Origin: Tridacna crocea
Lineage: Eukaryota; Mollusca; Bivalvia; Cardiida; Cardiidae
Direction of reading: 5' to 3'
Assembly: GCA_943736015.1 (NCBI GenBank)
Contig: OX031065.1
Location: 18,304,427 to 18,368,426 of the forward strand
Length of the DNA: 64,000 nt
This document shows, in pieces, positions 611-63,595 of this stretch; position 1 is the stretch's first letter, and each line of letters opens with the position of its first letter. Both the position numbers and the translations under genes were made by a program. The notes under the pieces were generated by a model. The model had not been told where the DNA came from, made no database searches, and saw nothing but the letters and a program-made list of their open reading frames with translations.

Positions 611-838
611 TTAAGTCATTACCAAACAACAAAATATTGTGCTTGTCCATATCGAAAGTATTTGGAGATGACAAAATAAAAGTGACTGAAAATTTGAAAT
701 TTGTTTTGTGAAGGGTAGAAAACAGTGTGGGAAAAGGAGAAAATGCTGGTTACCAGCATTTTCTCCTTTTCCCACAATGTTTTCTAAAGGTTACTTTCTC
801 AGGGTCGTCAAAAGTAGGGATTGTGTACAATGGGTTAA
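611..838 (-). mobile_element. TTAA palindromic MITE, copy 1
   Basis: TTAA lies at 611-614 and 835-838. I call 'forward' the orientation whose left arm reads CCCWTTACCACACAATCCC and whose right arm ends CAAATGCTTTCAATTTGG...GGTAATGGG before TTAA. This copy is reversed. The centre (about 715-787) is an almost perfect inverted repeat around ATGCTGGTTACCAGCAT. There is no coding capacity, so it must depend on a transposase supplied elsewhere. TTAA ends followed by CCC are typical of piggyBac-type elements. Confidence 0.85.
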
Positions 839-1344
839 CTGACTATTAAAGAAGGGCGCTTTAATTTCATTATAAGCTGAATTTTGGAACTCTATTTACT
901 TATTTCAAATGCAAATTTCTCAGAAACGAGCTCGGTGACGTACTGTAATCTCCTAGAGACACAATGAACTTTGTATGTGCGAAGTTTTCAAAAAAAAAAA
1001 ATCTGTCTGCTAGAAAAATTTCTCATAAACGTCGTTAAATCATCTCAATGACTATCTTGTATTTCGTGGTAGAAATATATGCCAACGTACAAATGCCAGC
1101 TTCGTTCGTATATGATTGAGAGATTTTGCGTTGAAATATTTTAAGGTTTATTGTGATAATTTTCTCCGGAAACTTTTCACTATCTCGATGAGATTTTTAG
1201 GAAACTTTAATTTACCGCGATATTTGTCTAAAATTATCGTGATGGCTATATCGTATCACATGGTAAGAATGTGCCACCATATTTTTCTCATTCGTCATAT
1301 CTCGGGTGGATAATTAATATTGTGATCGCATTGTTCGAGCCTTG
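839..1344. other. No gene seen
   Basis: AT-rich spacer. A short open frame on the plus strand (1116-1313) has no recognisable domain and no splice context. I would not call it a gene. Confidence 0.5.
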
Positions 1345-1573
1345 TTAACCTATTACCACACAATCCCTACTTTTGACGCCCCTGAGAAAGAGGCCTTTTG
1401 AAAACACTGTAGGAAAAGGAGAAAATGCTGGTAACCAGCATTTTCTCCTTTTCCCACAGTGTTTTTTACCCTTCCCAGAACAAATTTCAGTTTTTCAGTC
1501 ACCTTTATTTTGGCGTCTGCAAATGCTTTCAATTTGGACCAGTCTAAAATTTTGTCATGTGGTAAAGAGTTAA
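1345..1573 (+). mobile_element. TTAA palindromic MITE, copy 2
   Basis: Forward copy with TTAA at 1345-1348 and 1570-1573. It has both asymmetric arms and an intact central palindrome in the form GAAAACACTGTRGG. It is 229 bp, the standard length in this window. Confidence 0.88.
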
Positions 1574-1613
1574 GACGAATTTTATAATTTGGCTTGCAAC
1601 ACGCGAAAAGAGG

Positions 1614-1824
1614 CATTCGGGCATTTGCGTAAAGTGCCGTCTTGGATCAGCCTGCGCAGGCTAATCCGAAACGACACTTTACGACTACATTAGATTTTGT
1701 GCTACAGTAGATTTGCGCAAAACAGAAAATTATATAAAAACGGAAATCGTCGTTCCGGATCAGCTTGAGCGGATTGCACAGTCTGATCCGTTACGACACT
1801 TTACGCCAATATCCGAATGTCCCT
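1614..1824. mobile_element. Foldback element, GCGTAAAGTG family
   Basis: An inverted repeat pairs CATTCGGGCATTTGCGTAAA at the left with TTTACGCCAATATCCGAATG at the right. Inner blocks around GGATCAGCCTGCGCAGG and GGATCAGCTTGAGCGG are also self-complementary. There is no coding capacity. The TGCGTAAAGTG motif is one I know as very common in bivalve genomes; this is memory, not a search. Confidence 0.7.
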
Positions 1825-3055
1825 TTTCACATACCGGTATTGCTGCTCATATACATTGATGAGTAGATCTGCTTATCCCCTCATGGGTGATGGCAAATAA
1901 GAGAATTTTATGGAGACATTTAGCACGGACGAAAGTTTATCAAAGAGTTAGAGTGTTAAATACTTTTGATAATTTACATTCTAGTCGTGTGTAGTCCTTT
2001 ACTTTTTAAAATAATTTAGCGAGAGAGAGAGAGGGGAGATTTACTTGTGAGAAATACTTTTTCTGTTCACCACGTACACTTGGTTTATAATACTTATATT
2101 TTACATGTATTTGTATGTACCATTTTGGAAAATGTAGTACATCTCGATACAGTCTGACATTCTGCAACCATAGACATTAATTCAAACTGTACCTGCGAGC
2201 AAAGCTAAGTTATAGAAAATCATAAACATTGCACGAGGCCATCATAGCTGTAGCCTACATACATGCTCAAGTGTATAATTGTTTTGTTCAAAGTACTGCT
2301 TAAAAAAGTCCAGGAATGCTGCATTATGCATTCATCCGTATGTGCAGGAGCTGCCGTGATATAGCCGACAGCGTTGGACACGTGATATGCCAAACAGGCT
2401 AAAGTGTACGTCGGTTCAAATGACGGATAAAGAAGAACAAGTAAATACAAAACAACAATGTATTCGATTTTATAACAAGAAACTATTGATGCGGAACAAC
2501 CATGGCGCCGCAAATCAGTTGTTTCTGAAATAAGGCACATTAAAACATTTAAAAATTGACCGAAGTAAATTTCTATAGAACGCGGTGAGAAATGAATTTA
2601 GAAGTCTTAGACAATCTGTCGATTGCAAGTTAAAACTTATAAGTGAAAGAACCAACAATGATAAGACACAATAATAGCAATTCTTCGGTGACATTTCAGA
2701 TAGTTTCAATTGGAGCTGTGTATAAAAGCAGTTGTGGAGCTATGCACAAAATCTTATTTTGTACATAGCTCCAAGAAGGTATTATTAAAACTAGGTTCTA
2801 AATTACCGAATTGATATATAAAAACAAAGGGGTGTATGAAATGACCGAAGTGGCAACGAAATTGTCAAAGCGAGTACAAAATGGCCAAATAAAGGTAGGT
2901 GCAAAATGGCTTAGGTATGAAATGACCTAATTACGACATGACTGGAAGCGAAGTAAAAAACAGGTATGGCTGCCTCCATACTTTTCAAAACGGCGAATAA
3001 AAATATAGTGCCGTCGCTCATGCGGCGCCACAATAAAGTAATTTCATCGTGTAAA
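1825..3055. other. No gene seen; short microsatellite
   Basis: The stretch includes a short GA run near 2020-2035. An open frame on the minus strand at 2220-2540 (106 codons) was inspected. It has a hydrophobic stretch but no family signature and no splice sites that link it to anything, so it is not called. Confidence 0.45.
2736..2772. repeat. Short hairpin
   Basis: GGAGCTATGCACAAAAT pairs with ATTTTGTACATAGCTCC across a 3-base loop, with a single mismatch. It is isolated and its function is unknown. Confidence 0.7.
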
Positions 3056-3117
3056 CACCATCGGAAATATTTTCACGAGTGTCGCATTCACTCATAAAAA
3101 TATTACCGATGATGTTC
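3056..3117. repeat. Imperfect inverted repeat
   Basis: ACACCATCGGAAATATTTT and its near reverse complement (ending ATATTACCGATGATGT) face each other across about 8 bases. It is probably the remnant of a foldback element. Confidence 0.6.
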
Positions 3118-5728: not shown

Positions 5729-5816
5729 GGAAATTTTCATTTAAGTTATTTGGCACTTGATTAATGATTGCAATGATGATAACATTGAAGAAAAGTGTAG
5801 GAAAATATCATATCAC

Positions 5817-7175: not shown

Positions 7176-7404
7176 TTAACCCGTTACCACACAATCCCTA
7201 CTTTTGACACCCCTGAGAAAGAAGCCTTTAGAAAACATTGTGAGAAAAGGAGAAAATGCTGGTAACCAGCATTTTCTCCTTTTCCCACAATGTTTTCTAC
7301 CCTTCACAAAACAAATTTCAAATTTTCTGTCACTTTTATTTTGTCGTCTGCAAATGCTCTCAATTTGGACCATTCTAAAATATTGTCGTTTGGTAATGGG
7401 TTAA
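7176..7404 (+). mobile_element. TTAA palindromic MITE, copy 3
   Basis: Complete forward copy, 229 bp, with TTAA at 7176-7179 and 7401-7404. The central palindrome is intact. It is a good reference sequence for the family. Confidence 0.9.
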
Positions 7405-7914: not shown

Positions 7915-8138
7915 AAAGCGAAACATTCCCTGCATGGTTTTACGGGTCAGGAATAGAAACCTTTTGAAAACATTGTGGGGAAAAGAGAAAATGCTGGTAA
8001 CCAGCATTTTCTCCTTTTCCCAAATTGTTTTCTACCCTATCATATAGAAAAATCATCTTTTTAGCACCTGGTAATTTGTCATCTGCAAAATGCTTTCAAT
8101 TTGGAAAGGTCCAAAATTTGCCGTTTGGGAAAGGGTTA
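7915..8138 (+). mobile_element. TTAA palindromic MITE, copy 4 (TTTACGGGTC subfamily)
   Basis: The left end is eroded (no clear TTAA) and the right end reads GGGAAAGGGTTAC, a decayed TTAA. The arm TTTTACGGGTCAGGAATAGA matches copy 12 at 43972-44185, so both belong to the CCCTTTCCCAAAC subfamily. The central palindrome is retained. Confidence 0.8.
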
Positions 8139-8312: not shown

Positions 8313-8534
8313 TTAACTCATGTCCACACACCAATATTTCAGCGCTGTCCAATTTGAAAGCACTCACAAGAAACAATATCTATTTGACACAAATAATGAG
8401 TTTGTATCAGATAGTCCAGAAAACATCGTGGAAAGAGGAGAAAATGCTGGTTACCAGCATTTTCTCCTTTTCCCACAATGTTTTCAAAAGGCCAACTTCT
8501 CGATAAAATTGGGGTTTGTGTGATAAAGGGTTAA
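8313..8534 (-). mobile_element. TTAA palindromic MITE, copy 5
   Basis: Reversed copy with TTAA at 8313-8316 and 8531-8534. The outer arms are diverged, but the central palindrome (GAAAACATCGTGG... to ...CCCACAATGTTTTC) is well kept. Confidence 0.82.
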
Positions 8535-8883: not shown

Positions 8884-9108
8884 TTAACCCTTGACCAAAC
8901 AAGCCCAACTTTTAACAACCCCAAAGAAGAAGACTTTTGAAAGTATTGTGAGAAAAGCAGAAATACTAGTAACCAGCATTTCATCTTTCCTCAACATGTT
9001 TTTCTACCTTTCCAAAACAAAGTTTAGTAACAGCTGGGCCAGTTTTGTTTTCTGCATTTGCTTTCAATTTGAAGAAGCCTATAATTTTGTGTCTTCGTAA
9101 AGAGCCAA
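8884..9108 (+). mobile_element. TTAA palindromic MITE, copy 6 (decayed)
   Basis: TTAA at 8884-8887, then CCCTTGACCAAACAAG. The palindrome is mutated (AAAGCAGAAATACTAGTAACC) and the right TTAA is lost (GTAAAGAGCCAA). An old copy. Confidence 0.7.
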
Positions 9109-10272: not shown

Positions 10273-10514
10273 TTAAAACTTTACCAGACGACAAAATTTT
10301 AGTCTTGCCCAATCTGAAAGCATTTACAGTCGACAATTTCAATGTGGTTCAAATGGTGCCATTTTTCCTTGACAACCTCTAAAAAAAAAAAAAAAAAAAT
10401 GTGGGAAAAGAAGAAAATGCTGGTTACCAGCATTTTCTTCTTTTCCCACAATGTTTTCATAAAATGCTTCTCTCATAAAAGCCGTTAAAAGTCGGCATTG
10501 TGCGGTAGAGGACT
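10273..10514 (-). mobile_element. TTAA palindromic MITE, copy 7
   Basis: Reversed copy starting with TTAA at 10273-10276; the right TTAA is decayed (GGACTAAG). A poly-A run of 19 interrupts the left side. The palindrome carries paired changes in both arms: GGAG has become GAAG on the left and CTTC on the right, so pairing is kept. Confidence 0.8.
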
Positions 10515-10660
10515 AAGAAAGAAAAGCGTTAAAGCGTTTCTGTTACAGAGCCACACCGGAACTCGGGAGCTAATATTCATCATTTAAATAGACATCTAAT
10601 GAGCCGCCCAAAATATAGTAGAATTTAAAATTAGATTTGCTCATCCTTCTCAGAGAGACT

Positions 10661-15707: not shown

Positions 15708-15934
15708 TTGGAAATACCAAACAATCCCTGGTTTTTTACGACCCTGAGATTGAAGCCTTTTGAAAACACTGTGGGAAAAGGAGAAAATGCTGGTAACCAG
15801 CATTTTTCTCGTTATCCCACAATGTTTTCTACCCTGCTGGAAAAATTTCTTAATTTGAGTTATGCTTATTTTGTCGTCTGCAAGTGCTTTCAATTTGGAC
15901 CAGTGTAAGATTTTGTTGTTTGGTAAAGGGTTAA
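15708..15934 (+). mobile_element. TTAA palindromic MITE, copy 8
   Basis: Forward copy. The right TTAA is at 15931-15934; the left TTAA is lost (GGAAATACCAAACAATCCC). The arm reads CCTGGTTTTTTACGACCC, intermediate between the two main arm types. The palindrome has one extra T and a small mismatch (TTCTCGTTATCCC). Confidence 0.82.
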
Positions 15935-16142
15935 AAGTTAGGGAAAGAATTAAACCACGTGGCAAATAAACTGCAAAAAGTTTGTTTTTTTCCTCAGTGT
16001 TAATAACTCAGTATCGAGGAAGTCTCTTGGCCATTTTTTTAAAACTTGACTCTTAAATTTATTCAGCACAAAATTACAAATTTTCCTAGTTGATAAAAGC
16101 AATAGCAAACAAATGGATAGAGAAATGCGTGAAAAAATTGAA

Positions 16143-16374
16143 TCATTCCCAAACGACAAATTTTAGACTCTTCAAAACTGAAAGACTTTGCAGACGACAT
16201 TTTTCAGTTTCGGGAAAATGGCTGAAAGTTCTCAAATTGAAAAAAAAAAAAACACACACACAGTGGGAAAAGGAAAAGTGCTTGTTACAAGCAATTTCTC
16301 CCTTTCCACACACTGTTTTCAAACAGCTTGTACTGCAAACACGTAAAAACAGGGCTTGTCTGGGAAAGGGTTGA
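16143..16374 (-). mobile_element. TTAA palindromic MITE, copy 9 (GCTTGTTACAAGC centre)
   Basis: Reversed copy of the TTCCCAAAC subfamily; both TTAA ends have decayed (the right end reads GGGAAAGGGTTGA). The centre is GTGCTTGTTACAAGCAA instead of ATGCTGGTAACCAGCAT. An A run and CACACA interrupt the left arm. Confidence 0.72.
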
Positions 16375-17563: not shown

Positions 17564-20500
17564 CAAAAAAACTAAAATGTTGGTAGAACTGCGACATCCA
17601 ATATTGCAATATATTGTAGACTGTCTGCTCCGACAGACGGTTTCGGCAACGCCGAATTTTCTGTCACGGAGGCCAGATACAAACTTAATATTAATAAAAA
17701 AAAACAACCCTGAAATATTCGCAGATCTGCTAATCCGGTAGTATAGACTGTCTGCTCTTACTTAAGATTTCGGCAACGCCTAGTTTTCTGTCATGAAGGA
17801 CAGATCTGGACTTAAAATATTAGCAAAAGGACTAAAATATTGGTAGATCTGCGACACCCGATATTGTAGACTGTCTGCTCCGACAGACGGTTTCGGCAAC
17901 GCCGAATTTTCTGTCACGGAGGCCAGATACAAACTTAATATTAACAAAAGAAAAAACTGAAATATTCGTAGATCTGCGAATCCGGTAGTATAGACTGTCT
18001 GCTCTGACAGAAGATTTCGGCAACGCCTAGTTTTCTGTCATGAAGGACAGATCTGGACTTAAAATATTAACAAAAGGACTAAAGTATTTGTAGATCTGCG
18101 ACATCCGATATTGTAGACTGTCTGCTCCGACAGAAGGTTTCGGCAACGCCGAGTTTTCTGTCACGGAGGCCAGATACGGACTTAATATTAACAACAACAA
18201 AAAAAAAACCACTGAAATATTCGCAGATCTGCTAATCCGGTAGTATAGACTGTCTGCTCTTACTGAAGATTTCGGCAACGCCTAGTTTTCTGTCATGAAG
18301 GACAGATCTGGACTTAAAATATTAACAAAAGGACTAAAATATTGGTAGATCTGCGATATCCAATATAGAAAGTTTCGGCAACGCCGAGTTTTCTGTCACG
18401 GAGGCCAGATACAAACTTAATATTAACAAAAAAAACCTGAAATATTTGTAGATCTGCGAATCCGGTAGTACAAACTGTCTGCTCTGACAGAAGATTTCGG
18501 CAACGCCTAGTTTTCTGTCATGAAGGAGAGATCTGGACTTAAAATATTAACAAAAGGACTAAAATATTAGTAGATCTGCGACATCCGATATTGCAGACTG
18601 TCTGCTCCGACAGAAGGTTTGGGCAACGCCGAGTTTTCTGTCACGGAGGCCAGATACGGACTTAATTTTAACAACAAAAAAAAAAAGACCCAAAAAACCC
18701 TGAAATATTCGTAGATCTGCGAATCCGGTAGTATAGACTGTCTGCTCTGACAGAAGATTTCGGCAACGCCTAGTTTCCTGTCATGAAGGACAGATCTGGA
18801 CTTAAAATATTAACAAAAGGACTAAAATATTGGTAGATCTGCGTCATCCCATATTGTAGACTGTCTGCTCCGACAGACGGTTTCGGCAACGCCGAATTTT
18901 CTGTCACGGAGGCCAGATACAAACTTAATATTAACAAAAAGCTGAAATATTCGTAGATCTGCAAATCCGGTAGTATTGACTGTCTGCTCTGACAGAAGAT
19001 TTCGGCAACGCCTAGTTTTCTGTCATGAAGGACAGATCTGGACTTAAAATATTAACAAAAGGACTAAAATATTGGTAGATCTGCGACATCCGATATTGTA
19101 GACTGTCTGCTCCGACAGAAGGTTTCGGCAACGCCGAGTTTTCTGTAACGGAGGCCAGATACGGACTTAATATTAACAACAACAACAAAAAAAAACAACC
19201 CTAAAATATTCGTAGATCTGCGAATCCGGTAGTATAGACTGTCTGCTCTGACAGAAGATTTCGGCAACGCCTAGTTTTCTGTCATGAAGGAGAGATCTGG
19301 ACTTAAAATATTAACAAAAGGACTAAAATATTGGTAGATCTGCGTCATCCCATATTGTAGACTGTCTGCTCCGACAGACGGTTTCGGCAACGCCGAATTT
19401 TCTGTCACGGAGGCCAGATACAAACTTAATATTAACAAAAAAAAAAAAAAAAAAAACTGAAATATTCGTAGATCTGCGAATCCGGTAGTATAGACTGTCT
19501 GCTCTGACAGAAGATTTCGGCAACGCCTAGTTTTCTGTCATGAAGGACAGATCTGGACTTAAAATATTAACAAAAGGACTAAAGTATTTGTAGATCTGCG
19601 ACATCCGATATTGTAGACTGTCTGCTCCGACAGAAGGTTTCGGCAACGCCGAGTTTTCTGTCATGGAGGCCAGATACGGACTTAATATTTACAAAAAAAC
19701 TGAAATATTCGTAGATCTGCGAATCCGGTAGTATAGACTGTCTGCTCTTACTGAAGATTTCGGCAACGCCTAGTTTTCTGTCATGAAGGACAGATCTGGA
19801 CTTAAAATATTAACAAAAGGACTAAAATATTGGCAGATCTGCGTCATTCCATATTGTAGACTGTCTGCTCCGACAGACGGTTTCGGCAACGCCGAATTTT
19901 CTGTCACGGAGGCCAGATACAAACTTAATATTAACAAAAAAAAAACTGAAATATTCGTAGATCTGCGAATCCGGTAGTATAGACTGTCTGCTCTGACAGA
20001 AGATTTCGGCAACGCCTAGTTTTCTGTCATGAAGGACAGATCTGGACTTAAAATATTAACAAAAGGACTAAAGTATTTGTAGATCTGCGACATCCGATAT
20101 TGTAGACTGTCTGCTCCGACAGAAGGTTTCGGCAACGCCGAGTTTTCTGTCATGGAGGCCAGATACGGACTTAATATTTACAAAAAAACTGAAATATTCG
20201 TAGATCTGCGAATCCGGTAGTATAGACTGTCTGCTCTTACTGAAGATTTCGGCAACGCCTAGTTTTCTGTCATGAAGGACAGATCTGGACTTAAAATATT
20301 AACAAAAGGACTAAAATATTGGCAGATCTGCGTCATTCCATATTGTAGACTGTCTGCTCCGACAGACGGTTTCGGCAACGCCGAATTTTCTGTCACGGAG
20401 GCCAGATACAAACTTAATATTAACAAAAAAAAAACTGAAATATTCGTAGATCTGCGAATCCGGTAGTATAGACTGTCTGCTCTGACAGAAGATTGCGGCA

Positions 20501-43744: not shown

Positions 43745-43975
43745 CTTAGCTCCTTACCACACAATCTAGACTTTTAACGACTTAGAATGAACAAATTTTC
43801 GAAAACATCATGGGAAAAGGAGAAAATGCTGGTAACCAGCATTTTCTCATTTTTCCACGACATTTTCTACTCATTTGAGGACAGTTTCATCATTTGATCT
43901 ACTTTTGATTTGTCATCTACAAATGCTTTGAATTTGGACTAGGGTATAATTATGTAGTTTGGTAACCCTTTCCCA
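43745..43975 (+). mobile_element. TTAA palindromic MITE, copy 11
   Basis: Forward copy, left end CTCCTTACCACACAATC. It abuts copy 12 directly and appears to share its terminal TAA. The palindrome is mostly kept, with mismatches in the outer arms. Confidence 0.8.
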
Positions 43976-44185
43976 AACAATCCCTGGATTTTACGGGTCA
44001 GGAATAGAAGCCTTTTGAAAACATTGTGGGGAAAGGAGAAAATGCTGGTAACCAGCATTTTCTCCTTTTTCCACAATGTTTTCTACCCTATCATATAGAA
44101 AAACCATCTTTTTAGCAACTTTTGTCATCTGCAAAATGCTTTCAATTTGGTCTGGTCCAAAATTTGCCGTTTGGGAAAGGGTTAA
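43972..44185 (+). mobile_element. TTAA palindromic MITE, copy 12 (TTTACGGGTC subfamily)
   Basis: Forward copy beginning CCCTTTCCCAAACAATCC and ending GGGAAAGGGTTAA (TTAA 44182-44185). It is nearly identical to copy 4. It stands head-to-tail with copy 11. Confidence 0.88.
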
Positions 44186-44967: not shown

Positions 44968-45175
44968 AAACGTCAAATCTTAGACGCTTACAAACTGAGT
45001 TTGCAGACAACAATTTTGATAAAAATGGCAGAAAGTTCTCCGATAGGATAGAAAACATTGTAGAAAAAGACGCAAATGCTTATTACGAACAATGTCACAT
45101 TTTCCCACAATGTTTTCAAAAGAGTTAATCTGTACTGCAGACACGTAGAAACATGGGATAAACATGTCAGTGCCA
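44968..45175 (-). mobile_element. TTAA palindromic MITE, copy 13 (decayed)
   Basis: Reversed copy without clear TTAA ends. It keeps GTTTGCAGACAACAATTTTG, GATAGAAAACATTGTAG and TTTCCCACAATGTTTTCAAA. The centre (ATGCTTATTACGAACAATG) is mutated. Confidence 0.68.
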
Positions 45176-45369: not shown

Positions 45370-45598
45370 TTAACCCTTTCCCAAACGATAAATTTTTGGA
45401 CTAGACCAAATTGAAAGCATTTGCAGACAACAATTCAACTCTTGCTGAAAAGATGATTTCTGTCTATGCTAGGGTAGAAAACATTGTGGGAAAAGGAGAA
45501 AATGCTGGTTACCAGCATTTTCTTCTTTTCCCACAATGTTTTCAAAAGGCTACTATTCCGAACCCGTAAAAACCAGGGACTGTTTGGGAAAGGGTTAA
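45370..45598 (-). mobile_element. TTAA palindromic MITE, copy 14
   Basis: Complete reversed copy of the CCCTTTCCCAAAC subfamily, TTAA at 45370-45373 and 45595-45598, 229 bp. The palindrome is intact except one GGAG/CTTC mismatch. Confidence 0.9.
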
Positions 45599-47453: not shown

Positions 47454-47682
47454 TTAACTCTTTACCACACGAGAAAATTTTAGACTGGTCCAAATTGGAA
47501 GCATTTGCAGACGACAAAATAAAGGTGACTGAAAAATTGAAATTTCTTCTGGGAAGGGTAGAAAACACTGTGGGAAAAGGAGAAAATGCTGGTTACCAGC
47601 ATTTTCTCCCTTTCCCACGGTGTTTTCAAAAGGCTTCTTTCTCAGGGGTGTCAAAAGTAGGGATTGTGTGGTAATGGGTTAA
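47454..47682 (-). mobile_element. TTAA palindromic MITE, copy 16
   Basis: Complete reversed 229-bp copy, TTAA at 47454-47457 and 47679-47682. It is very close to copies 2 and 10 and therefore probably among the younger ones. Confidence 0.92.
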
Positions 47683-47943: not shown

Positions 47944-48178
47944 ACTTATCATGTAACCAAACAATTCGAAGTTCTAGCAACCCCAAGAAAGGAAGCTTTG
48001 GAAAACAAGTGGGAAAAGGAGAAAATACTGGTTGCCAACATTTTCCCTTTTTTCCACAACGTTTTCTACCCTTAAGAAAACTATTATTTCTCGTTTATCT
48101 ATGGTTTTACTTTGGATGACACTTGTTTATCAATAGTTTTACTTCGCATGATCTTGCTGTTTTGTAAAGTGTAACAAA
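47944..48178 (+). mobile_element. TTAA palindromic MITE, copy 17 (decayed)
   Basis: The arm has AACCAAACAATTCGAAG, and the palindrome is reduced to GTGGGAAAAGGAGAAAATAC...TTTTTTCCACAACGTTTTC. The right arm is only loosely recognisable to TTTTGTAAAGTGTAA. Confidence 0.65.
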
Positions 48179-48722: not shown

Positions 48723-48766
48723 ATTGGCTACACCAGTTAGAAATGTAAAAGGCACTTTAACTCTTT

Positions 48767-48985
48767 ACCACACAGTCCCCACTTTTAACAACCCTGAAGA
48801 AGAAGCCTTCTGAAAACATTGAGGGAAAAAGAGAAAATGTTGGTAACCAGCATTTTCTCCTTTTCCCACAATGTTTTCTTCCCGGCCCAAAACATATTTC
48901 AGTTTTTCAGTTTCTTTTATTCGGTCGTCTGCAAATGCTTTCAGTTTGGACCAGTCTAAAATTTTGTCATTTAGTAAAGAGTTAC
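48767..48985 (+). mobile_element. TTAA palindromic MITE, copy 18
   Basis: Forward copy, TTAA at 48767-48770, right end GTAAAGAGTTAC (decayed). The palindrome has small mismatches (ATTGAGGG, ATGTTGG). It is followed within a few bases by copy 19 in the opposite orientation. Confidence 0.85.
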
Positions 48986-48987: not shown

Positions 48988-49219
48988 GTTTACTCTTCAC
49001 GAAACAACAAAATTTCAGACTGGACGAAATTGAAAGCATTTACAGAAGACAAATAATGTGCAGCTTTAATTATGATTTCCGCATGTCTTTCCTTGGGTAA
49101 AACATTGTTGGAAAAGAAGAAAATGCTGCTTATCACCATTTTCTTCTTTTCCAACAATGTTTCCAAAAGCCTTCTCTTTCAGGGTTGTTGAAACTTGGAA
49201 TTGTATGGTAAAGAGTTGA
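48988..49219 (-). mobile_element. TTAA palindromic MITE, copy 19
   Basis: Reversed copy with decayed ends. Both palindrome arms changed together: GTTGGAAAAGAAG on the left and CTTCTTTTCCAAC on the right, against GTGGGAAAAGGAG in most copies. Confidence 0.82.
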
Positions 49220-49337: not shown

Positions 49338-49437
49338 TAAACCCTGTATCAGATGACAAAATGTTAGCCTTGTCCAAATTGAAAGCATTTGCAGACAACA
49401 AAATAAATGTGACTCAAAATTTGAACTTGACTCTTAA
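49338..49437 (-). mobile_element. TTAA MITE half, copy 20
   Basis: Only the arm ACCCTGTATCAGATGACAAAA...TTGTCCAAATTGAAAGC...AAATAAATGTGACTC remains. It ends near ACTCTTAACTC. The palindrome is missing. Confidence 0.65.
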
Positions 49438-50420: not shown

Positions 50421-50645
50421 TTAACCCATTACCACACAATCCCTACTTTTTACGCCCCTCAGAAAAAAGCCTTTAGAAAACATTGTGGGAAAAGGAGAAA
50501 ATGCTGGTAACCAGCATTTTCTCCTTTTCCCAAAATGTTTTCTACCCTTTACAAAAATTTCAAAATTTCAGTCACTTCTATTTTGTCGTCTGCAAATGCT
50601 TTCAATTTTGACCATCTAAAATATTGTTGTTTGGTAATGGGTTAA
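50421..50645 (+). mobile_element. TTAA palindromic MITE, copy 21
   Basis: Complete forward copy, TTAA at 50421-50424 and 50642-50645. The palindrome has one mismatch (CCCAAAATG). The right arm has a short deletion. Confidence 0.9.
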
Positions 50646-51149: not shown

Positions 51150-51243
51150 CTCAGTAAGAAACATTTTGTACTTTTCCCACAGTGTTATCAAAGTCCTTGT
51201 TTCTGAGGTTGTTGAAACAGTTGGTTATTTGTCAAATTGTTAC
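51150..51243 (-). mobile_element. TTAA MITE right-half fragment, copy 22
   Basis: TTTTCCCACAGTGTTATCAAA, then GTTGTTGAAACAG and GTCAAATTGTTAC. This is the end part of a reversed copy, directly against copy 23. Confidence 0.55.
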
Positions 51244-51476
51244 CTTTTTACCACACACAAAAATGTTAGATTGATTGAAATTCAAAGCCTCTGATGACAA
51301 ATAGAATGTAGCACAAGTGCTATAATCATTAGTACATCAGGAAGGGTAGAAAATATTGTGGGAAAAGGAGAAAATGTTATTTACTAACATTTTTCTCCTT
51401 TTCCCACAATGTTCACAATAGTTCCCTCTCTCTGGGTGGTTAAAACTCTGTGTGGCAAAGGATTAAAACGTTTTGC
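51239..51476 (-). mobile_element. TTAA palindromic MITE, copy 23
   Basis: Reversed copy with right TTAA at 51473-51476. The centre is ATGTTATTTACTAACAT: both arms of the innermost part changed (GCTGG to GTTAT, CCAGC to CTAAC), so pairing is largely retained. Confidence 0.8.
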
Positions 51477-51886: not shown

Positions 51887-52098
51887 TTAACTCATTACCA
51901 AAACGACAATATTTTAGACTGGTCCAAATTGAAAGCATTTGCAGATGACAAAATAAAAATGACTGAAAATTTGAAATTTGTTTTGTGAAGGGTAGAAAAC
52001 ATTGTGGGAAAAGGAGAAAAATGCTGGTTACCAGCAATGTTTTCTAAAGACTTCTTTCTCTGGGGTGTCAAATGTAGGGATTGTATGGTAATGGGTTC
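51887..52098 (-). mobile_element. TTAA palindromic MITE, copy 24, one palindrome arm deleted
   Basis: Reversed copy, TTAA at 51887-51890, right end GGGTTCAT. After TGCTGGTTACCAGCA it jumps directly to ATGTTTTCTAAAG, losing the ~18-base TTTTCTCC...CCCAC part of the second arm. Confidence 0.88.
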
Positions 52099-52289: not shown

Positions 52290-52389
52290 TTAACACTTTA
52301 CAACTTTTGAAAAAACATTTAGGGAAAAGGAGAAAAAAGCATGTAACCACTATTTCCACCTTTTCCCAAAATGTCTTCTGCTTTTTTAA
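52290..52389 (+). mobile_element. TTAA MITE fragment, copy 25
   Basis: TTAACACTTTACAACTTTTG, a degenerate palindrome (AGCATGTAACCACTATTTCC), then truncated at the TTAA that starts copy 26. Confidence 0.65.
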
Positions 52390-52617
52390 CCCTTTCCCAA
52401 ACAAGCCCTGGTTTTTACATGTCTGCAGTAATTAATAGTCTTTTGAAAACACTGGGGGAAAAGGAGAAATTGCTCATAACGAGCAATTTCTCCATTCCCC
52501 ACAGTGTTTTCTACCCCTTTTGAGATTTTTCTGCCATTTTCTCCAAATCTAAAATTGTCATCTGCAAACTCTTTCAGTTTTGAATGGTCCAAAATTTATT
52601 GTTTGGGAAAGGGTTAA
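52386..52617 (+). mobile_element. TTAA palindromic MITE, copy 26 (CTCRTAACGAG centre)
   Basis: Complete forward copy of the CCCTTTCCCAAAC subfamily, TTAA at 52386-52389 and 52614-52617. The centre is AAATTGCTCATAACGAGC rather than ATGCTGGTAACCAGCAT. Confidence 0.9.
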
Positions 52618-52704: not shown

Positions 52705-52932
52705 TTAACCCTTTACCAAACAACAAAATTTTGGACTAGTCCAAATTGAAAGCATTTGTTGATGATAAAACAATGCGACTTAAAAACTGAAATTTGATTT
52801 GGTAAGGGTAGAAAACATGGAGGGAAAAAGATAAAATAATGGTTACCAGCATTTTCTCTTTTTCCTACAATGTTTTCAGAAGCTTTCTTTATTAGGGTCG
52901 TTAAAAGTCTGAAATGTTTGGTAAAGAGTTAA
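52705..52932 (-). mobile_element. TTAA palindromic MITE, copy 27
   Basis: Complete reversed copy, TTAA at 52705-52708 and 52929-52932. The palindrome is partly eroded (AAGATAAAATAATGG against CATTTTCTCTTTTTC). Confidence 0.88.
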
Positions 52933-53083
52933 ACCAATTTCAATGATGCATCTACAATATATCAGTTGAATACAATGAATAATTAAATACTGAGTTATAT
53001 AAAAATGTGCCTTAATAATCCAGCATACTCTGAAAAATACTCTGTACAATTTTTATTACAATGCATTACTGCAGTAAAAACAG

Positions 53084-53172
53084 TTACCTGCATTTTCTCC
53101 TTTTCCCTCAAAGTTTTCAAATAATGCCTTCTTTCCAGGGTTGTTAAAACTTGGGATTGCCTGCTAATTTTT
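53084..53172 (-). mobile_element. TTAA MITE right-half fragment, copy 28
   Basis: GTTACCTGCATTTTCTCC, then TTTCCCTCAAAGTTTTC and GGGTTGTTAAAACTTGGG. The left half is missing. Confidence 0.6.
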
Positions 53173-53362
53173 CAGACCACAAATTTTAGAATTGTCCAAA
53201 TTAAAGCAGTGGTCTGAATGATGGGACCTTTGGGAGAAAACATTGTGGGAAAAGGAGACGGTGCTGATTACCACTCACCAGCCTTGTCTCCTTTTGTGAC
53301 AATGTTTTCAGACCTCCTGCCACAAGGTTGATAAAATACAGGATTGTTTGATAAAAGAATAA
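53172..53362 (-). mobile_element. TTAA palindromic MITE, copy 29 (decayed)
   Basis: Reversed copy with ACCACAAATTTTAGAATTGT at the left and GGATTGTTTGATAAAAG at the right. The centre is remodelled: GGAGACGGTGCTG on the left faces CAGCCTTGTCTCC on the right. Confidence 0.7.
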
Positions 53363-53521: not shown

Positions 53522-53731
53522 GTAACCCATCGCCGCACAATCCCTACTTTTGACGCCCCTGAGAAAGAAGCCTTTAGAAAACATTGTGGGAAAAGGAGAA
53601 AATGCTGGTAACCACAATGTTTTCTACCCTTCACAAAACAAATTTCAAATTTTGAGTCACTTTTATTTTGTCGTCTGCAAATGCTTTCAATTTGGACCAG
53701 TCTAAAATATTGTCGTTTGGTAATGGGTTAA
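53522..53731 (+). mobile_element. TTAA palindromic MITE, copy 30, one palindrome arm deleted
   Basis: Forward copy, left end GTAACCCATCGCCGCACAA, right TTAA 53728-53731. The second palindrome arm is reduced: TGCTGGTAACC joins ACAATGTTTTCTACCC. Its right arm contains TTTATT at 53662-53667, that is AATAAA on the minus strand, the nearest such signal after the ASB17-like gene. Confidence 0.9.
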
Positions 53732-55269: not shown

Positions 55270-55497
55270 TTCTCGACCTTTTCCAATCTAGACTTTCAAC
55301 GACACGGGGGCAATGGCTTTGTGAAGAGAGTTTAGAATAAGAAAAAATTGCCGTCAGTCTGTAATATCACGTTTTCCCCCACAATGTTTCTTCTCTATGA
55401 AAGACATATTTCACGAATTGACTATCATTCAATTTGTCGTCTGCAAATACTTTTTATTTTGGCAAGACTAGAATTTTGTCGTTTGGCAAAGAGTCAA
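55270..55497 (+). mobile_element. TTAA palindromic MITE, copy 31 (decayed)
   Basis: CCAATCTAGACTTTCAACGAC, then CCCCCACAATGTTTCTTC, and a clear right arm (TTTGTCGTCTGCAAATAC...TTTTGTCGTTTGGCAAAGAG). The first palindrome arm is nearly unrecognisable. Confidence 0.7.
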
Positions 55498-55514: not shown

Positions 55515-55727
55515 TTATTCAAGCGACAATCTCTTTATTTAAAACTTCCTTTCAATTTTTTTGGAAAACATTGTGGGAAGAGAAGGAAATGCCAGCATTT
55601 TCTCTTTTTCCCAAAATGTTTTCTTTCACAAACAAATCCAATAACTTCTGTCTTCTATCTATTTTGTCAACTTCCAATGCTTTCAAATTTGACTAGTATA
55701 AAATTTGGTCGTGGGGTAATGGGCCAA
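55515..55727 (+). mobile_element. TTAA palindromic MITE, copy 32 (decayed)
   Basis: GGAAAACATTGTGGGAAGAG, then TGCCAGCATTTTCTCTTTTTC and a right arm ending GGTCGTGGGGTAATGGG. The innermost palindrome has collapsed to ATGCCAGCAT. Confidence 0.75.
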
Positions 55728-55916: not shown

Positions 55917-56140
55917 GTAACCCTTTACCAAAGATGAAAATCTTAGACTGTTCCAAATTAAATGAATTGGCAGGCAATAAACAAAATGTGACTGTAATGG
56001 TTGGATATGCCTGTCCAAGGATTGAAAACATTTAAGAAAAAGGAGAAAATGCTGGTCAGCATCATTTTCTCCTATTCCCAGAGTGTTTTTAATAGCCACC
56101 TCACTCAGTTATAAAACTCTGGATTGTTTGGTAAAAGGTA
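55917..56140 (-). mobile_element. TTAA palindromic MITE, copy 33
   Basis: Reversed copy starting GTAACCCTTTACCAAAGATG and ending TTGTTTGGTAAAAGG. The palindrome centre is ATGCTGGTCAGCATCAT, shortened by a small deletion. Confidence 0.8.
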
Positions 56141-56297: not shown

Positions 56298-56522
56298 TTA
56301 ACCCTTTACTCCATAGATACTCCTTTCTATACATTGCTTATAGGAGCCTTTGGAAAACATTGTGGCAAAAGGTGAAATTGCTCGTCACGAGCAATTTCAC
56401 CTTTTGTTATGATGTTTTCCAAGCTATCAAAAGGTGTCATATACACATAAGAAACGGCTTCATCCTTGCTACTATTTAGGATCAATTAGACCAAAGAAAT
56501 GCCTTATGGGGTAAAGGGTTAA
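56298..56522. mobile_element. TTAA palindromic element, CCCTTTACTCCA subfamily, copy 34
   Basis: TTAA at 56298-56301 and 56519-56522. The ends are CCCTTTACTCCATAGATAC and CTTATGGGGTAAAGGG. The palindrome is GGTGAAATTGCTCGTCACG...CACCTTTTG. The outer arms differ from the main family, but TTTGGAAAACATTGTGG is shared. A second full copy is at 62466-62695 and a fragment at 56946. Confidence 0.9.
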
Positions 56523-58868: not shown

Positions 58869-59069
58869 AAAGTTATGAAACTTTTCCAGACACTTATTGA
58901 ACACCCCTCCTATTGTATCTCATCATTCAGTTGATTGTAATTTGAAACAGAATTTAAGATTTCATTACTATGTGATGAGTTCTTTAGTATTCTGCGTTAC
59001 AAAGATACAAAAAAATCAAGAGTGCTGTACATGTAATTGTGATATGGGCCCATCTTGTAAAAGCATTTT

Positions 59070-59398
59070 GACTCTTTACCACACAGCAAAATTTTAGACT
59101 TATCCAAATTGAAAGCATTTGCAGACGACAGTTTCATAGTGGCTCAAATGATGCAATTTTTTTTTTTATAAGGTAGAGAACCTTGTGAGAAAAGGAGAAA
59201 ATGCTGGTTACCAGCATTCTCAATGAAAATTTCAATGTGACTTAAATGGCACATTTTTTCTTGGCGTGGGGGGTTATACAACATGGTGGGAAAAGGAGAA
59301 AATACTGGTTACCAGCATTTTCACCTTTTCCCGCAATGTTTTCGTAACACTATTTTCAAAGGGTGGTTTAAAGTAAGCATTGTGTGGTAAACGGTTAA
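59070..59398 (-). mobile_element. TTAA palindromic MITE, copy 36, composite with two centres
   Basis: Reversed copy, right TTAA 59395-59398. It contains two successive palindrome halves: GGAGAAAATGCTGGTTACC near 59195, then again GGAGAAAATACTGGTTACC near 59295. The region CAATGTGACTTAAATGGC between them repeats arm sequence. It was made by internal duplication or nested insertion. Confidence 0.8.
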
Positions 59399-59525: not shown

Positions 59526-59696
59526 TTAACTCTTTATCAGAAAATCCTGACTTTTGACGACCCAGAGAAAGAAGCCTTTTGAAAACATTGTGGTAAAAGG
59601 AGAAAATGCTAGTTACCAGCATTTTCACCTTTTCCCATAATCTTTTCAAAAGCCCTCAAGGTCGTGAAAAGTCGGGATTGTGTGGTAAAGAGTTAA
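59526..59696. mobile_element. Fully symmetric snap-back copy 37
   Basis: TTAA at 59526-59529 and 59693-59696. Both ends are the same arm: the left reads CTTTATCAG...ATCCTGACTTTTGACGACC and the right reads GGTCGTGAAAAGTCGGGATT then GTGTGGTAAAGAG. The element is therefore one ~171-bp hairpin, without the usual second arm. Confidence 0.88.
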
Positions 59697-59882
59697 TTGT
59701 CATCTGCAAGTGCTTTCAAATTTAATGACTTCAAATTTTTGTCATAACTAGCATTTTCTCCTTTCCTTGGGGATTTTTATACACTTTTAGAGCAAAATTT
59801 CAACATTACAACCACATTTTGTATTCTGCAAATACTTCCACTTTGGAGAACTCCAATTTTTTGTTGTTTAGTAAATAGTTAA
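59697..59882 (+). mobile_element. TTAA MITE right-half fragment, copy 38
   Basis: It contains TAGCATTTTCTCC and AGCAAAATTTCAACATTAC, and ends GTTTAGTAAATAGTTAA, sharing TTAA 59879-59882 with copy 39. The left part is missing or replaced by copy 37. Confidence 0.65.
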
Positions 59883-60156
59883 CCTATTACCAAACAATCT
59901 TGACTTTTAACAACCCTGGTGAAGAAAGGTTTTGAAAACCTCACGGGAAAAGGAGTAAATGCTGATAACCAGCATTTTCTACTTTTCAAACGAGGTTTTC
60001 TTTTGTTTTTCCCATAAGGTTTTCTTTTCCTTTTCCCACAAAGGTTTTCTTTCCTATCATAGACAAATTTCATTATTTCAGTCACATTTAATTTGCCTTC
60101 TGCAAAAGCTTTCAGTTTGGACAAGTCTAAAATTTTGTTGTTTGGTAAAGAGTAAA
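59879..60156 (+). mobile_element. TTAA palindromic MITE, copy 39, with arm triplication
   Basis: Forward copy, left TTAA 59879-59882, right end GGTAAAGAGTAAAG. After the palindrome the segment AGGTTTTCTTTT...TTCCCA is present three times (about 59993-60052), lengthening it to ~278 bp. Confidence 0.82.
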
Positions 60157-60237: not shown

Positions 60238-60378
60238 TAATCTTTCACCAGACAATCCCAAGTTTTGACAAACCTGAGACAGATGGCTTTACAAAACAAC
60301 AATGGAAAAAGATAAAATGCTGATAACCACCTCCTTCAGGGTTGATTAAAGTCAAGATTGGTGTTGTAAAGCATTATC
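60238..60378. mobile_element. Symmetric snap-back copy 40
   Basis: TTAA at 60238-60241. The left arm TCTTTCACCAGACAATCCC with AGTTTTGACAAACCTGAG is mirrored on the right by CTCCTTCAGGGTTGATT, AAAGTCAAGATTGG and TTGTAAAGCATTA. It is a smaller and older version of copy 37. Confidence 0.7.
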
Positions 60379-60592
60379 TTAATACAAGGTAGCAAAATTT
60401 CAGACTAGATAAAATTGTAAATACTTGCAAACAGTAGGTCTCAAATGAAGGGATTAGGCTTTAAAAGGTTTAAAAATATTGCATAAAAAGAAAAAAATGC
60501 TGGCTTTCAGTATTTTCTCCACTTTGAAAGTTTATTTCAAAATCCGTCCTCAGGGGCATTTACACATGGGGTTGTTTGGGAATGGTTTATTG
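60379..60592 (-). mobile_element. TTAA palindromic MITE, copy 41 (decayed)
   Basis: Reversed copy: AGCAAAATTTCAGACTAG at the left and GGTTGTTTGGGAATGG at the right. The palindrome (AAAATGCTGGCTTTCAGTATTTTC, abbreviated here) is weak. Confidence 0.65.
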
Positions 60593-60711: not shown

Positions 60712-60936
60712 TTAACCCTTTACTACACAATCCCGACTTTTAAAGACCCTGAAAAAGAAGCCTCTTGAAAACACTGGGAAAAGGAAGAAATGCTGGTAAC
60801 CACCATTTTCTCCTTTTCCTACAATGTTCTCTACCCCATCAAACAAAAATCACATAATCAAGCCACATTGAAATTGTCAGCTGAGAATTCTTTCAATTTG
60901 GATATGTCTAAAATTTTGTCATGTGGTAAAGGATAA
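60712..60936 (+). mobile_element. TTAA palindromic MITE, copy 42
   Basis: Forward copy, TTAA 60712-60715, right end GTGGTAAAGGATAAA. The palindrome has several mismatches (CACTGGGAAAAGGAAG). Confidence 0.82.
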
Positions 60937-61128: not shown

Positions 61129-61353
61129 CTAACTCTTGACCAGACATTAAAATATTAGACTTGTCAAGGTTGAAGGAATTTGCAGATAACAAATGCGTCC
61201 TCAATAATGCAATTTGTCTAAGAAAGGGTAAATAACAATTTGGGGAAGAGAGAAAATGTAGATTACAAGTATTCTATCCTTTTTCTCAAAATGTTTTCAA
61301 AAGCCTTCTTTTTCAGGGTTGTTAAAACACTGTATTTTTTCGTTATGGATTAA
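61129..61353 (-). mobile_element. TTAA palindromic MITE, copy 43 (decayed)
   Basis: Reversed copy, right TTAA 61350-61353. The centre AATGTAGATTACAAGTATT no longer pairs well. Confidence 0.75.
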
Positions 61354-61394: not shown

Positions 61395-61623
61395 TTAACC
61401 CTTTACCAGACAACAAAATTTTAGGATTGTCCAAATGGAGAGCATTTGCAGATGACAAAATAAAAGTAACTGAATATTTGAAACTTGTTTTGTGAAGAGT
61501 AGAAAACATTGTGGGAAAAGGACAAAATGCTGGTTACCAGCATTTTCTCCTTTTCCCACAATGTTTTCTATAGGCTTCTTTTTCAGGGTCATCAAAAGTC
61601 GTCATTGTGTGGGAAAGGGCTAA
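61395..61623 (-). mobile_element. TTAA palindromic MITE, copy 44
   Basis: Reversed 229-bp copy, TTAA 61395-61398, right end GGGAAAGGGCTAA (one base from TTAA). The palindrome is intact apart from one change (GGACAAAATG). Confidence 0.9.
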
Positions 61624-61772: not shown

Positions 61773-62000
61773 TTAACCTTTTATCACACAATCCATAGTT
61801 TTAATCATCCTAGGAGAGTGGTCTTCTAAAAACATTGTGGGAAAAGGAGAAAATGAAGCTAACCAGCATTTTCTCCTTTTCAAACAATGTTTTCTACCTA
61901 TTCTTGGATAAATAAGATCATTTGAAAATGATCTGAATTGTAGTCAAAAAATTCCTTCCCTATGGACAATTTTAACATTTCACCCTCCAAAGGGTTTACT
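61773..62000 (+). mobile_element. TTAA palindromic MITE, copy 45
   Basis: Forward copy, TTAA 61773-61776, palindrome AATGAAGCTAACCAGCATT. The right arm is heavily diverged, ending near CCTCCAAAGGGTTT. Confidence 0.7.
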
Positions 62001-62185
62001 CGTAATTTCCTGAAACAAATTTGCAATGGATGACTTTGAAAATATTCCTGTATATTGGGGACAATCAACATGTTCTAAGGCTTAGAACATGAATTAAACT
62101 GGTAGTTTTGTGCCAAAAGGAAAAAAAAATCAGCCACTGAAAAAACATCTCTAATTGCCACATCGTTTTCAAGTGCTGGATGCAA

Positions 62186-62306
62186 CTATTGATCAGTAGG
62201 CAGTGTATGTGTAATGACTCTGTTTGAAAGTTTAACTGTTGGGAGACCAAAACTTTGTCTTCCATTTTCACCAAACATCACACCGAAGAAAGCTGGTAGC
62301 GACAAC
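62186..62306 (-). CDS. Candidate terminal exon, family unknown
   Basis: The minus-strand frame is open from about 62362 to a TAG at 62186-62188. It encodes a peptide with RLSLPAFFGVMFGENGRQ and then SFGLPTVKLSNRVITH. Its composition is far more protein-like than the repeat frames. The only AG that gives an entry matching the phase-2 exit of the exon at 63757-63848 is GATGGGAAG (start 62306), which lacks a good pyrimidine tract. It could be the last exon of that gene, or a decayed exon. No family recognised. Confidence 0.35.
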
Positions 62307-62465
62307 CTTCCCATCACAATATGATCACAGATTGTAGATTTGATATGGATTGGTTGTATACATCACAGTTTTAATCTTTTGATGTCTTCTGACCGGAAAT
62401 CAATTCTGTGAAATACAAATTGCATTTCTGGTATTTTCATTTTCCTTCTTCATTCAGAAATAAGT

Positions 62466-62695
62466 TTAACCCTTTACTCCACAGATACTCATTTCTACCC
62501 ATTACTTGTAGGATCCTTTGGAAAACATTTTGGCAAAAGGTGAAATTGCTCGTAACGAGCAATTTCACCTTTTGTCACAATGTTTTCTATGCTATCAAAA
62601 GGTGTCATATACTCATAAGAAACAGCTTCATCCATGCTGTTATTTAGGGTCAATTAGAGATACCATAGAAAATGCCTTATGGGGTAAAGGGTTAA
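62466..62695. mobile_element. TTAA palindromic element, CCCTTTACTCCA subfamily, copy 46
   Basis: TTAA at 62466-62469 and 62692-62695. It is close to copy 34 over its whole length: AAATTGCTCGTAACGAGC centre, CTATCAAAAGGTGTCATATA, and GCCTTATGGGGTAAAGGG at the end. Confidence 0.92.
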
Positions 62696-63367
62696 GAATA
62701 CAGTCTATCAGATTTCTAATCATGGAAATCATTTTTTTTTTCTTCAGAATTAAAGATTAAATTGCCCATCTACATGTATGTCACCAAGCTGATTGGCTAT
62801 ATCCTCATGTAAATCAATCTTGACATACTGTCTTGTAAAGCAACAAAAATTGTTTTTGGGAAACCTTTGGTTTACAGAGGCTACATATTATTTCAAAGTT
62901 CATGTACAGTAAATAGGTTTGTATTTCTTGTTGAAAGAAGTTTCATGCTGTGACAGTATTTCAGCAATTTCATGGCTACCATGTCTAATCTATTATAAAC
63001 ATATTCAAATCTGCCAACCAACTTTTAAGACACTGCAATAACATTAACAAACTGTGGCAACATTCTTAAATCCTGATTTAACATGTTTCAGACTCACTTG
63101 AGCACATAAAAGACCTGACTCTGTTGACAAACTTCAGTCCATTATTTCACCAGGTTGAATTTGGAATGTGGTGTCTGTGCAGGATTTGAACATTCTAAGT
63201 TTATTAATGTTAGTGAAATACAGCTGTATGTCTAAAATACCTCTCTGTTAGCAGATTTGAATATGAGACTCACATTTTCAGTGAATGTGGGCCCAAGATT
63301 TCAACAAAAATCATCAAAAATAACTTGATGGTTACCTGCCCTGTTGCATAGGTTCCTGTTTCGATAC
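62696..63367. other. No gene seen
   Basis: Moderately AT-rich. It would be intron if the exons at 63757 and 62186 belong together. No exon or repeat recognised. Confidence 0.5.
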
Positions 63368-63595
63368 TTAACCCATTACCACACAATCCCTTCTTTTGAC
63401 GAACCTGAGAAAGAAGCCTTTTGGAAACATTGTGGGAAAAGAAGAAAATGCTGGTAACCAGCATTTTCTCCTTTTCCCACAATGTTTTTTTACCTTCACA
63501 AAATAAATTCAAAAGTTCAGTCACTCTTATTTTGTTGCCTGCAATTGCTTTTGATATGGACAAGCCTAAAATGTTGTCATTTGGTAATGAGTTAA
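63368..63595 (+). mobile_element. TTAA palindromic MITE, copy 47
   Basis: Forward copy, TTAA 63368-63371 and 63592-63595. The palindrome has GAAG on the left against CTCC on the right. The arm carries TTTTGACGAACCTGAGAAAG. Confidence 0.9.

Follow-up and report, generated by a model that had tools for sequence, protein, structure and literature searches.

A very abundant, probably piggyBac-type miniature transposable element with a structurally constrained central palindrome in the genome of Tridacna crocea

Most accounts of miniature inverted-repeat transposable elements (MITEs) present them as two ends enclosing a dispensable middle. Among short palindromic repeats with TTAA-type targets, PALTTAA and PALTTTAAA of C. 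elegans are palindromic over their whole length. In piggyBac, according to passages of PMC11707139, the same 19-bp palindrome is present in both ends but not equally far from the tip, these palindromes are bound by two C-terminal domains, and the DNA is bent; the ends of piggyBat are different. Here, we describe a short TTAA-bounded element with a long palindrome at its center that recurs through a 64,000-nucleotide stretch of Tridacna crocea DNA (GenBank assembly GCA_943736015.1, contig OX031065.1, positions 18,304,427 to 18,368,426 of the forward strand; this whole stretch is referred to as the window). The family is a real, very abundant MITE, probably of piggyBac type, with a structurally constrained center.

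With MITEs of the piggyBac superfamily, for which the ends of piggyBac and piggyBat are the studied model, the element has in common the duplication of TTAA, ends in CCC, a left and a right end that are not symmetric, and an internal palindrome. It differs in having a single palindrome of 67 bases (33/33 pairs matched in the majority sequence) instead of a 19-bp motif in each end, and in reaching about a million copies, as estimated from a sample; none of the 17 transposase loci read had matching ends. Unlike PALTTAA and PALTTTAAA, only its center is palindromic and its two arms differ. The middle of this MITE is more constrained than the rest: pairs are kept by matched changes, and the distances to the ends are kept while the arms turn over. 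What a MITE needs to out-multiply its parent therefore becomes directly testable. Passages of PMC10294476 report that MITEs fill a considerable part of bivalve genomes and leave them unclassified; the word "palindrome" is absent from the main text of that paper, and those passages contain no such family. In the open-license literature, no description recognized as that of the present family was found, and searches with sequence and peptide strings returned 0 papers.

Copies, subfamilies, and abundance

Copies in the window were sought with a profile built from nine seed copies. The search returned 47 non-overlapping matches at E < 1e-5 and 50 at E < 1e-3, 40 of the latter within 43.7 to 64 kb (Table 1). 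The original prediction, made from the letters of the window, of about 48 copies at one per 0.55 kb in that interval was thus about right, though some adjacent matches look like pieces of a single copy. Its description of most copies as 210 to 230 bp long, TTAA bounded, and with CCC(A/T)TT ends also held: the end motif TTAACCCWTTMCC (at most one mismatch) matched the window 43 times versus 0.34 expected, and the median length was 227 bp over 127 full-length matches (all loci analyzed, co-duplicated and overlapping loci included). Each element consists of a left end of ~107 bp, the central palindrome of 33 pairs plus one center base, and a right end of ~55 bp, for a total of ~229 bp. The inverted ends, read from individual copies, are ~13 bp long; the type A left end is CTC in the majority sequence, and the ends overall read C(C/T)C...GGG. 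Short length, terminal inverted repeats, and high copy number mark the element as a MITE, with coding judged from the list of open reading frames only. The near-perfect central palindrome of ~66 bp first proposed was confirmed, at 67 bases. Strong palindromes numbered 169 in 264 kb (the window plus the genome sample described below), 104 of them with an A-type core; one mononucleotide shuffle contained none.

The single family first proposed divides into three subfamilies that differ in their arms. Most copies belong to A; the consensus of B, which has TTAACCCTTTACCCCATAAGG ends, was built from 10 copies, and that of C, which has TTAACCCTTTCCCAAAC ends, from 7. The C consensus is rough, with two of the seven copies lacking recognized ends. 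Left end, palindrome, and right end measure 107/67/55 in A, 107/67/55 in B, and 106/67/55 in C. Across the loci analyzed (overlapping loci L001 to L004 and duplicated loci included), there were 293 hairpin matches, 16 of which were short; the other 277 comprised 215 of type A, 19 of C, 10 of B, 18 weak, and 15 other. Among 12 of these other hairpins that were inspected, types D (L014) and G (L001 to L004 and L043) were distinct and the rest were like decayed copies.

Element G is rarer. It has CAGTAC ends, which are flanked by TA in the L001 copy, and a related 65-base hairpin; genome-wide, there are 7 sites with its perfect hairpin core and 31 with one of its end motifs. We label it mariner-like from its TA flanks and CAGT ends, which we take to be typical of that group. 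At L043:690-3230, a piggyBac-type gene lies between two inverted G copies, one without a hairpin arm, an arrangement resembling a composite transposon. G may have captured the hairpin or may have a common ancestor with the MITE.

The genome assembly contains 1,048,827,098 bases in 31 contigs. Abundance was estimated from twenty 10-kb stretches on 14 contigs at preset round positions (200 kb in total). The family was present in 20/20 stretches, with 1 to 26 matches per stretch. At E < 1e-3, 240 matches spanned 20.9% of the sample (15.5 to 26.6% on resampling of stretches), and the reversed sample sequences gave 0 profile matches. Scaled to the genome, with the sample taken as representative, this corresponds to ~1.2 million matches (0.93 to 1.59 million by resampling); at E < 1e-10, coverage was 19.8% and the scaled number 1.11 million. 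Because matches include fragments, the true copies are somewhat fewer than the match count. Genome-wide pattern counts gave 196,209 + 194,004 sites for GAAAACATTGTGGG, versus 6 + 5 for the reversed pattern, and 208,145 exact sites for the 29-base A hairpin core, versus 0 for its control. About one-fifth of the genome thus appears to consist of one short TTAA-bounded DNA element. The density in the window is not special, since the sample averages 1.2 matches per kb. No match to the element was found in viral contigs (searched with one exact 29-base pattern) or in phages and plasmids (searched with one copy each).

Alu short interspersed nuclear elements are short, non-autonomous, and RNA mediated, lack TTAA and inverted ends, and make up ~10% of their host genome at about a million copies. 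The present family is like Alu in being a short non-autonomous element of about a million copies; taking these usual figures for Alu, ~1.2 million copies and 15.5 to 26.6% of the genome by sample put a single DNA-element family in the Alu-like range.

Conservation of the central palindrome

The palindrome had been proposed to be better kept than the arms, and the divergence data agreed. Local divergence was 6.3% and 7.3% in the hairpin arms versus 16.5% and 17.5% in the outer arms. Among independent insertions, the ratio of private changes in the palindrome to those in the outer parts was 0.53 (0.45 to 0.61; 105 copies). With ever closer neighbors it was 0.51, 0.46, 0.48, 0.39 (0.24 to 0.57; 29 copies), and 0.33 (0.15 to 0.52; the 18 copies with the closest relatives); these private changes include changes of the source copy because sampling is sparse. 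Palindrome divergence equal to or above that of the arms, which would have spoken against the original prediction, did not occur among independent insertions. Base composition was ruled out as the cause, since the lower divergence held in A/T and G/C sites taken separately.

Comparison of subfamilies A and B separates the palindrome from its surroundings. Identity was 31/84 sites in the inner left arms (shuffle p 0.03), 11/30 in the inner right arms (p 0.11), 9/13 and 10/13 in the 13-bp ends, and 57/67 (85%) in the palindrome. Within the palindrome, the center base and five pairs differ. In four of the five, both bases of the pair have changed (pairs 14 and 31 from G:C to C:G, pairs 21 and 26 from A:T to T:A), and in the B consensus the remaining one, pair 13, does not match. 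Within A, pair 8 is T:A but is C:G in 17/105 copies, and the single D hairpin has pairs 6, 17, 18, and 22 changed on both sides. Among 198 well-preserved hairpins (175 distinct), 85% of pairs were intact in A, 92% in B, and 85% in C. Genome-wide, the core with two A arms occurred at 208,145 sites, the B-or-C core at 27,927, and a mixed core, with one arm of type A and the other of type B or C, at 14; the A pattern fixes two bases left open in the B-or-C and mixed patterns.

Covariation was scored in 18 hand-chosen hairpins, well preserved and related to one another, that represent types A to D; two G hairpins were excluded because they align with a gap. In this set, 96.6% of cells pair (89.8% when shuffled), 37 cells changed on both sides (13.5 shuffled), and 9 pairs covary (5.6 shuffled). 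The covariation score was 0.199 versus 0.088 shuffled, a value reached by 0/500 shuffles; because the hairpins are related, none of the shuffle figures is a probability. Sliding the partner by 1 to 3 columns left 0 to 3 both-side cells and scores of 0.029 to 0.050. The number of further pair types (19 versus 18.3 shuffled) was not unusual. Compensatory changes across subfamilies, as expected of a structured element, were thus present in the set.

Loss of the hairpin was examined with a profile restricted to the left arm of type A (loci analyzed, duplicated loci included). Of 164 complete A-type left arms, 5 lay at edges, and 150 of the remaining 159 were directly followed by a hairpin match. 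Among copies with both arms, 121/124 keep the hairpin, the exceptions being two with a deleted stem arm and one badly decayed copy; no hairpin-less subfamily was seen among the 159 left-arm copies of these loci. Stem deletions are single cases (window 51887-52097 and 53523-53731, and L019:8703) and would fit slippage at a DNA hairpin. Together, the paired changes between A and B, the covariation, and the retention of the hairpin support the function proposed for the palindrome within the element.

Insertions duplicated together with their flanks allow decay after insertion to be followed; alignments above 98.5% identity were left out of this set. Differences in palindrome, arm, and flank, respectively, were 6/73, 19/159, and 94/1669 for L013/L023; 2/66, 4/94, and 239/2530 for L011/L026; and 2/66, 2/115, and 19/1400 for L001/L004. 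Three comparisons of L001 tandem units gave 3/67, 7/70, and 22/295; 5/67, 4/78, and 32/430; and 6/67, 8/79, and 27/429. In these few, small sets, in which tandem arrays may homogenize, palindrome, arm, and flank diverge alike within the small numbers, and the palindrome has changed almost as fast as the arm. Resident A copies (152 distinct hairpins, 27 non-diagnostic pairs) had both arms changed in 66 cases versus 64.6 expected, and 34 of the 66 pair versus 26.8 expected. At pair 28, 7,204 one-sided G-to-A changes were counted genome-wide, versus 198 two-sided changes (G28:C to A:T), where ~62 would be expected if the arms changed independently. Subfamilies that have multiplied thus differ in the palindrome mainly through paired changes, whereas in resident copies pairing is lost as the two arms change one at a time and independently. 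Slow decay of the palindrome in each resident copy would show in the co-duplicates and was not clearly seen; we therefore place the constraint on multiplying copies and not on each resident copy. The original interpretation is supported in part, its functional palindrome included. A hairpin maintained through paired substitutions as the remainder of the element drifted suggests a need for it in multiplication; in our reading, multiplying elements need the palindrome, and insertions then decay mostly without repair.

Four pairs of loci (L040/L023, L019/L023, L023/L017, and L017/L013) were rejected as co-duplications, since identities of 66 to 70% indicate one MITE beside another. In such rows the palindrome is less diverged, for example, 9/63 versus 33/117 in the arms, 4/66 versus 48/122, and 12/66 versus 43/131.

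Superfamily and role of the hairpin

The proposed TTAA targets and piggyBac-like ends were borne out. The copy at 17335-17563 lies within tandemly repeated units. When its flanks were joined and aligned to the window, the junction was spanned by 37 alignments, of which 32, at 32 places in the window, have a single TTAA there; the empty array units thus show the TTAA duplication. TTAA stood at both ends of 75 of the 127 full-length matches (left, 98; right, 92). The target-site duplication and the 5'-CCC...GGG-3' termini are those of piggyBac elements. At least 118 matches to PF13843, the piggyBac-type transposase, are present in the genome, and the best such genes have open frames of ~460 to 670 codons with no stop. 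At 17 transposase loci, inverted ends of 14 bp next to TTAA were sought within the stretch taken around each. Paired TTAA-CCC ends were found at eight (L030, L031, L033, L035, L036, L039, L042, and L044), in five types: CCCTATCCTCCAC, CCCATTTATGCCT, CCCTTTATATAC, CCCT(A/T)GTCATGC, and CCCTTTCAGYGC. L038 had a left end only, L043 had no TTAACCC ends, and L029, L032, L034, L037, L040, L041, and L045 had no convincing ends. The label "piggyBac-type MITE" is given from target and end sequence rather than from a transposase partner. Membership in another TTAA-targeting superfamily would accord with the absence of the MITE ends from the 17 loci, and Kolobok, too, duplicates TTAA, as a passage of PMC9587614 states. 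The same passage gives Kolobok termini as RR...YY, whereas the ends here begin with C, and the five TTAA-CCC end types lie at piggyBac-type transposase genes of this very genome; we consider such a membership very improbable. As separate observations on these loci, the piggyBac-type element with CCCTTTATATAC ends at L033:1228-4215 sits inside a MITE copy, and one piggyBac-type gene occurs in near-identical copies at L034 and L037 (99.5% over 3.9 kb), with L045 similar and MITE copies co-duplicated.

We regard the family as probably a non-autonomous cut-and-paste MITE of piggyBac type whose hairpin is a cis element for mobility. The MITE would presumably be moved in trans by a piggyBac-like transposase, with the palindrome as a cis-acting part needed for mobilization. 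In the mechanism that we prefer, the palindrome would act like the internal palindrome of piggyBac ends, bound and bent by transposase C-terminal domains; a single shared palindrome at fixed unequal distances would then serve both ends, and a bound or folded center would let ends 229 bp apart join in one complex. Extrusion of a DNA hairpin during replication could add to this effect. By arithmetic from the layout, the palindrome center lies 140.5 and 88.5 bp from the outer TTAA edges. The 52-bp difference is close to five helical turns, which we offer as a prediction only.

Several observations weigh against this interpretation. The MITE ends, CCC(A/T)TTACCACAC, were found at none of the 17 transposase loci read (of at least 118 in the genome), so that the autonomous piggyBac-like copy with the same ends proposed as a check of the original prediction did not appear among them. 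Of the nine pairs that covary, four do so only through the one D hairpin. The near-absence of mixed cores shows arms travelling together and is not by itself selection. There are few co-duplicated sets, and most show slightly less divergence in the palindrome than in the arms. The excess of two-sided changes at pair 28 possibly reflects some template switching, small subfamilies, or copies of mixed age. A palindrome of 67 bases with 33 pairs exceeds the need of a 19-bp piggyBac palindrome, and, since symmetric changes are expected of a dimer-binding site as well as of a hairpin, the biochemical role is ambiguous; it may be that of a protein-bound palindrome, a DNA hairpin, or an RNA.

Three other accounts of the palindrome were weighed. 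It might be kept mainly by mutation, with template switching in replication copying arm onto arm and no function needed. The pair 28 excess is in keeping with this account, as are the complementary nature of 8/8 both-arm changes in copies with 4 to 8% change, the surplus of pairing both-arm changes in resident A copies, the slippage-prone sequence at private stem deletions, and the L011-L026 comparison, where one of the two palindrome differences makes a pair in L011 (in other unit pairs, two or three differences were counted). However, one-sided changes at pair 28 far exceed paired ones, both-arm changes at the 27 non-diagnostic pairs match independent expectation, and arm correction alone would not halve between-copy divergence relative to the outer arms, so that we judge this account unlikely. 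We give slightly less credence to a role as RNA, of which the dsRNA source first suggested would be one form, in which a read-through 33-bp duplex would feed small-RNA, editing, or processing pathways and sway multiplication or tolerance. Four hairpins folded as RNA at -37.6 to -53.4 kcal/mol (z, -10 to -14), and one-side changes compatible with G:U occur; against such a role, four of the five differing A/B pairs are transversion swaps without a wobble intermediate, the co-duplicated sets do not show clear protection of resident copies, and no Rfam family reached its gathering score in the window. The palindrome could also be a relic of MITE birth, left when the inner inverted repeats of a longer element were joined by interior deletion, with young source lineages. 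The L043 gene lies between inverted repeats of at least ~180 bp, and toward their inner side these repeats contain a similar type of hairpin arm. Those repeats, however, resemble the two inverted copies of G, whose ends are CAGTAC beside TA in L001, not TTAACCC, and the palindrome is not simply young because the arms of A and B are nearly saturated while the palindrome is not. We hold this origin to be decidedly improbable.

Beyond the favored reading of a piggyBac-type MITE with a cis-acting hairpin, we tentatively raise a broader idea, which we rather doubt: the palindrome may be an independent module of transposable elements, acting in cis by folding, selected as structure, and common to piggyBac-type elements with near-unrelated arms and the TA-flanked, mariner-like G, with the 107/67/55 geometry having enabled spread over about a fifth of a 1-Gb genome.

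Window features and neighboring repeats

Table 1. Copies of the element and tandem repeats in the window. The basis is the profile search of the window (E < 1e-5) unless stated.
Feature	Coordinates	Strand	Basis
Full copy, type A	611..837	+	profile, 216 bits
Full copy, CACTG/CAGTG paired variant	1346..1573	-	profile, palindrome listing
Full copy, type A	7177..7404	-	profile
Copy, type A	7921..8138	-	profile
Full copy, type A	8313..8533	+	profile
Decayed copy	8885..9104	-	profile
Full copy, ends decayed	10274..10515	+	profile
Copy	15715..15934	-	profile
Decayed copy	16142..16372	+	profile
Full copy within tandem array; array units are the empty site with one TTAA	17335..17563	-	profile, flank alignments
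Tandem array with empty sites, outside the element	17611..21993	.	repeat listing, flank alignments
196-bp satellite, distinct from the element; 72/139 loose motif matches	22680..39737	.	repeat listing, motif count
Copy	43747..43965	-	profile
Copy, C-like arms and type A palindrome	43963..44185	-	profile
Decayed copy	44964..45159	+	profile
Full copy, C-like arms and type A palindrome	45370..45598	+	profile
Full copy, best match	47454..47682	+	profile, 256 bits
Partial copy	47954..48082	-	profile
Full copy	48758..48984	-	profile
Full copy, decayed	48991..49217	+	profile
Partial copy (left arm)	49340..49428	+	profile
Full copy	50422..50645	-	profile
Full copy, decayed	51241..51465	+	profile
Full copy, 3' hairpin arm with deletion	51887..52097	+	profile, stem inspection
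Partial copy (hairpin)	52304..52381	-	profile
Full copy, type C palindrome	52387..52617	-	profile, palindrome listing
Full copy	52705..52931	+	profile
Partial copy	53082..53167	+	profile
Decayed copy	53169..53357	+	profile
Full copy, 5' hairpin arm with deletion	53523..53731	-	profile, stem inspection
Decayed copy	55281..55496	-	profile
Partial copy	55560..55724	-	profile
Copy	55918..56139	+	profile
Full copy, type B	56299..56522	-	profile, subfamily sorting
Partial copy	59069..59221	+	profile
Partial copy	59228..59398	+	profile
Copy	59527..59744	-	profile
Partial copy	59745..59882	-	profile
Partial copy	59880..60002	-	profile
Partial copy	60025..60155	-	profile
Partial copy	60238..60332	-	profile
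Decayed copy	60384..60588	+	profile
Full copy	60712..60934	-	profile
Full copy, decayed	61130..61352	+	profile
Full copy; hairpin 61502-61568, RNA fold -45.3 kcal/mol	61395..61623	+	profile, folding
Full copy	61774..61995	-	profile
Full copy, type B; hairpin 62521-62587	62466..62695	-	profile, folding, subfamily sorting
Full copy	63368..63595	-	profile
Partial copy at window edge	63940..63998	+	profile

With up to two mismatches, GAAAACATTGTGGG matched the window 139 times, and the 72 matches inside the 196-bp satellite (~87 copies of the unit) are not copies of the element. This satellite was rejected as a source of copies, scoring at most 8.3 bits against the profile, mostly over 26 hairpin bases; the 26-base stretch resembling one hairpin arm is possibly a relic. 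Elsewhere, the element itself is drawn into a satellite-like array: at L001 to L004 (start of contig C1, ~25 to 42 kb), tandem units of ~144 bp hold the MITE hairpin and part of an arm. At L011 and L026, a tandem unit of ~1.67 kb, ~85% alike on two contigs, carries a MITE copy.

Hairpin repeats seem common in this genome. Strong palindromes unrelated to the MITE (for example, CGTAAAGTGTCG..., AAAGTAACACAACTTCTGATTGG..., and TTGTGAGTTATGAGGC...) lie at window positions 1655, 2754, 3085, and 8636 and at L016:1735 and 3582, L014:791, L019:1952, and L027:4681, and several recur. Two open frames were also noted on the minus strand of the window, one encoding a SOCS box and matching ankyrin weakly (53823-54983) and one with an LDL-receptor class A domain (5808-6212).

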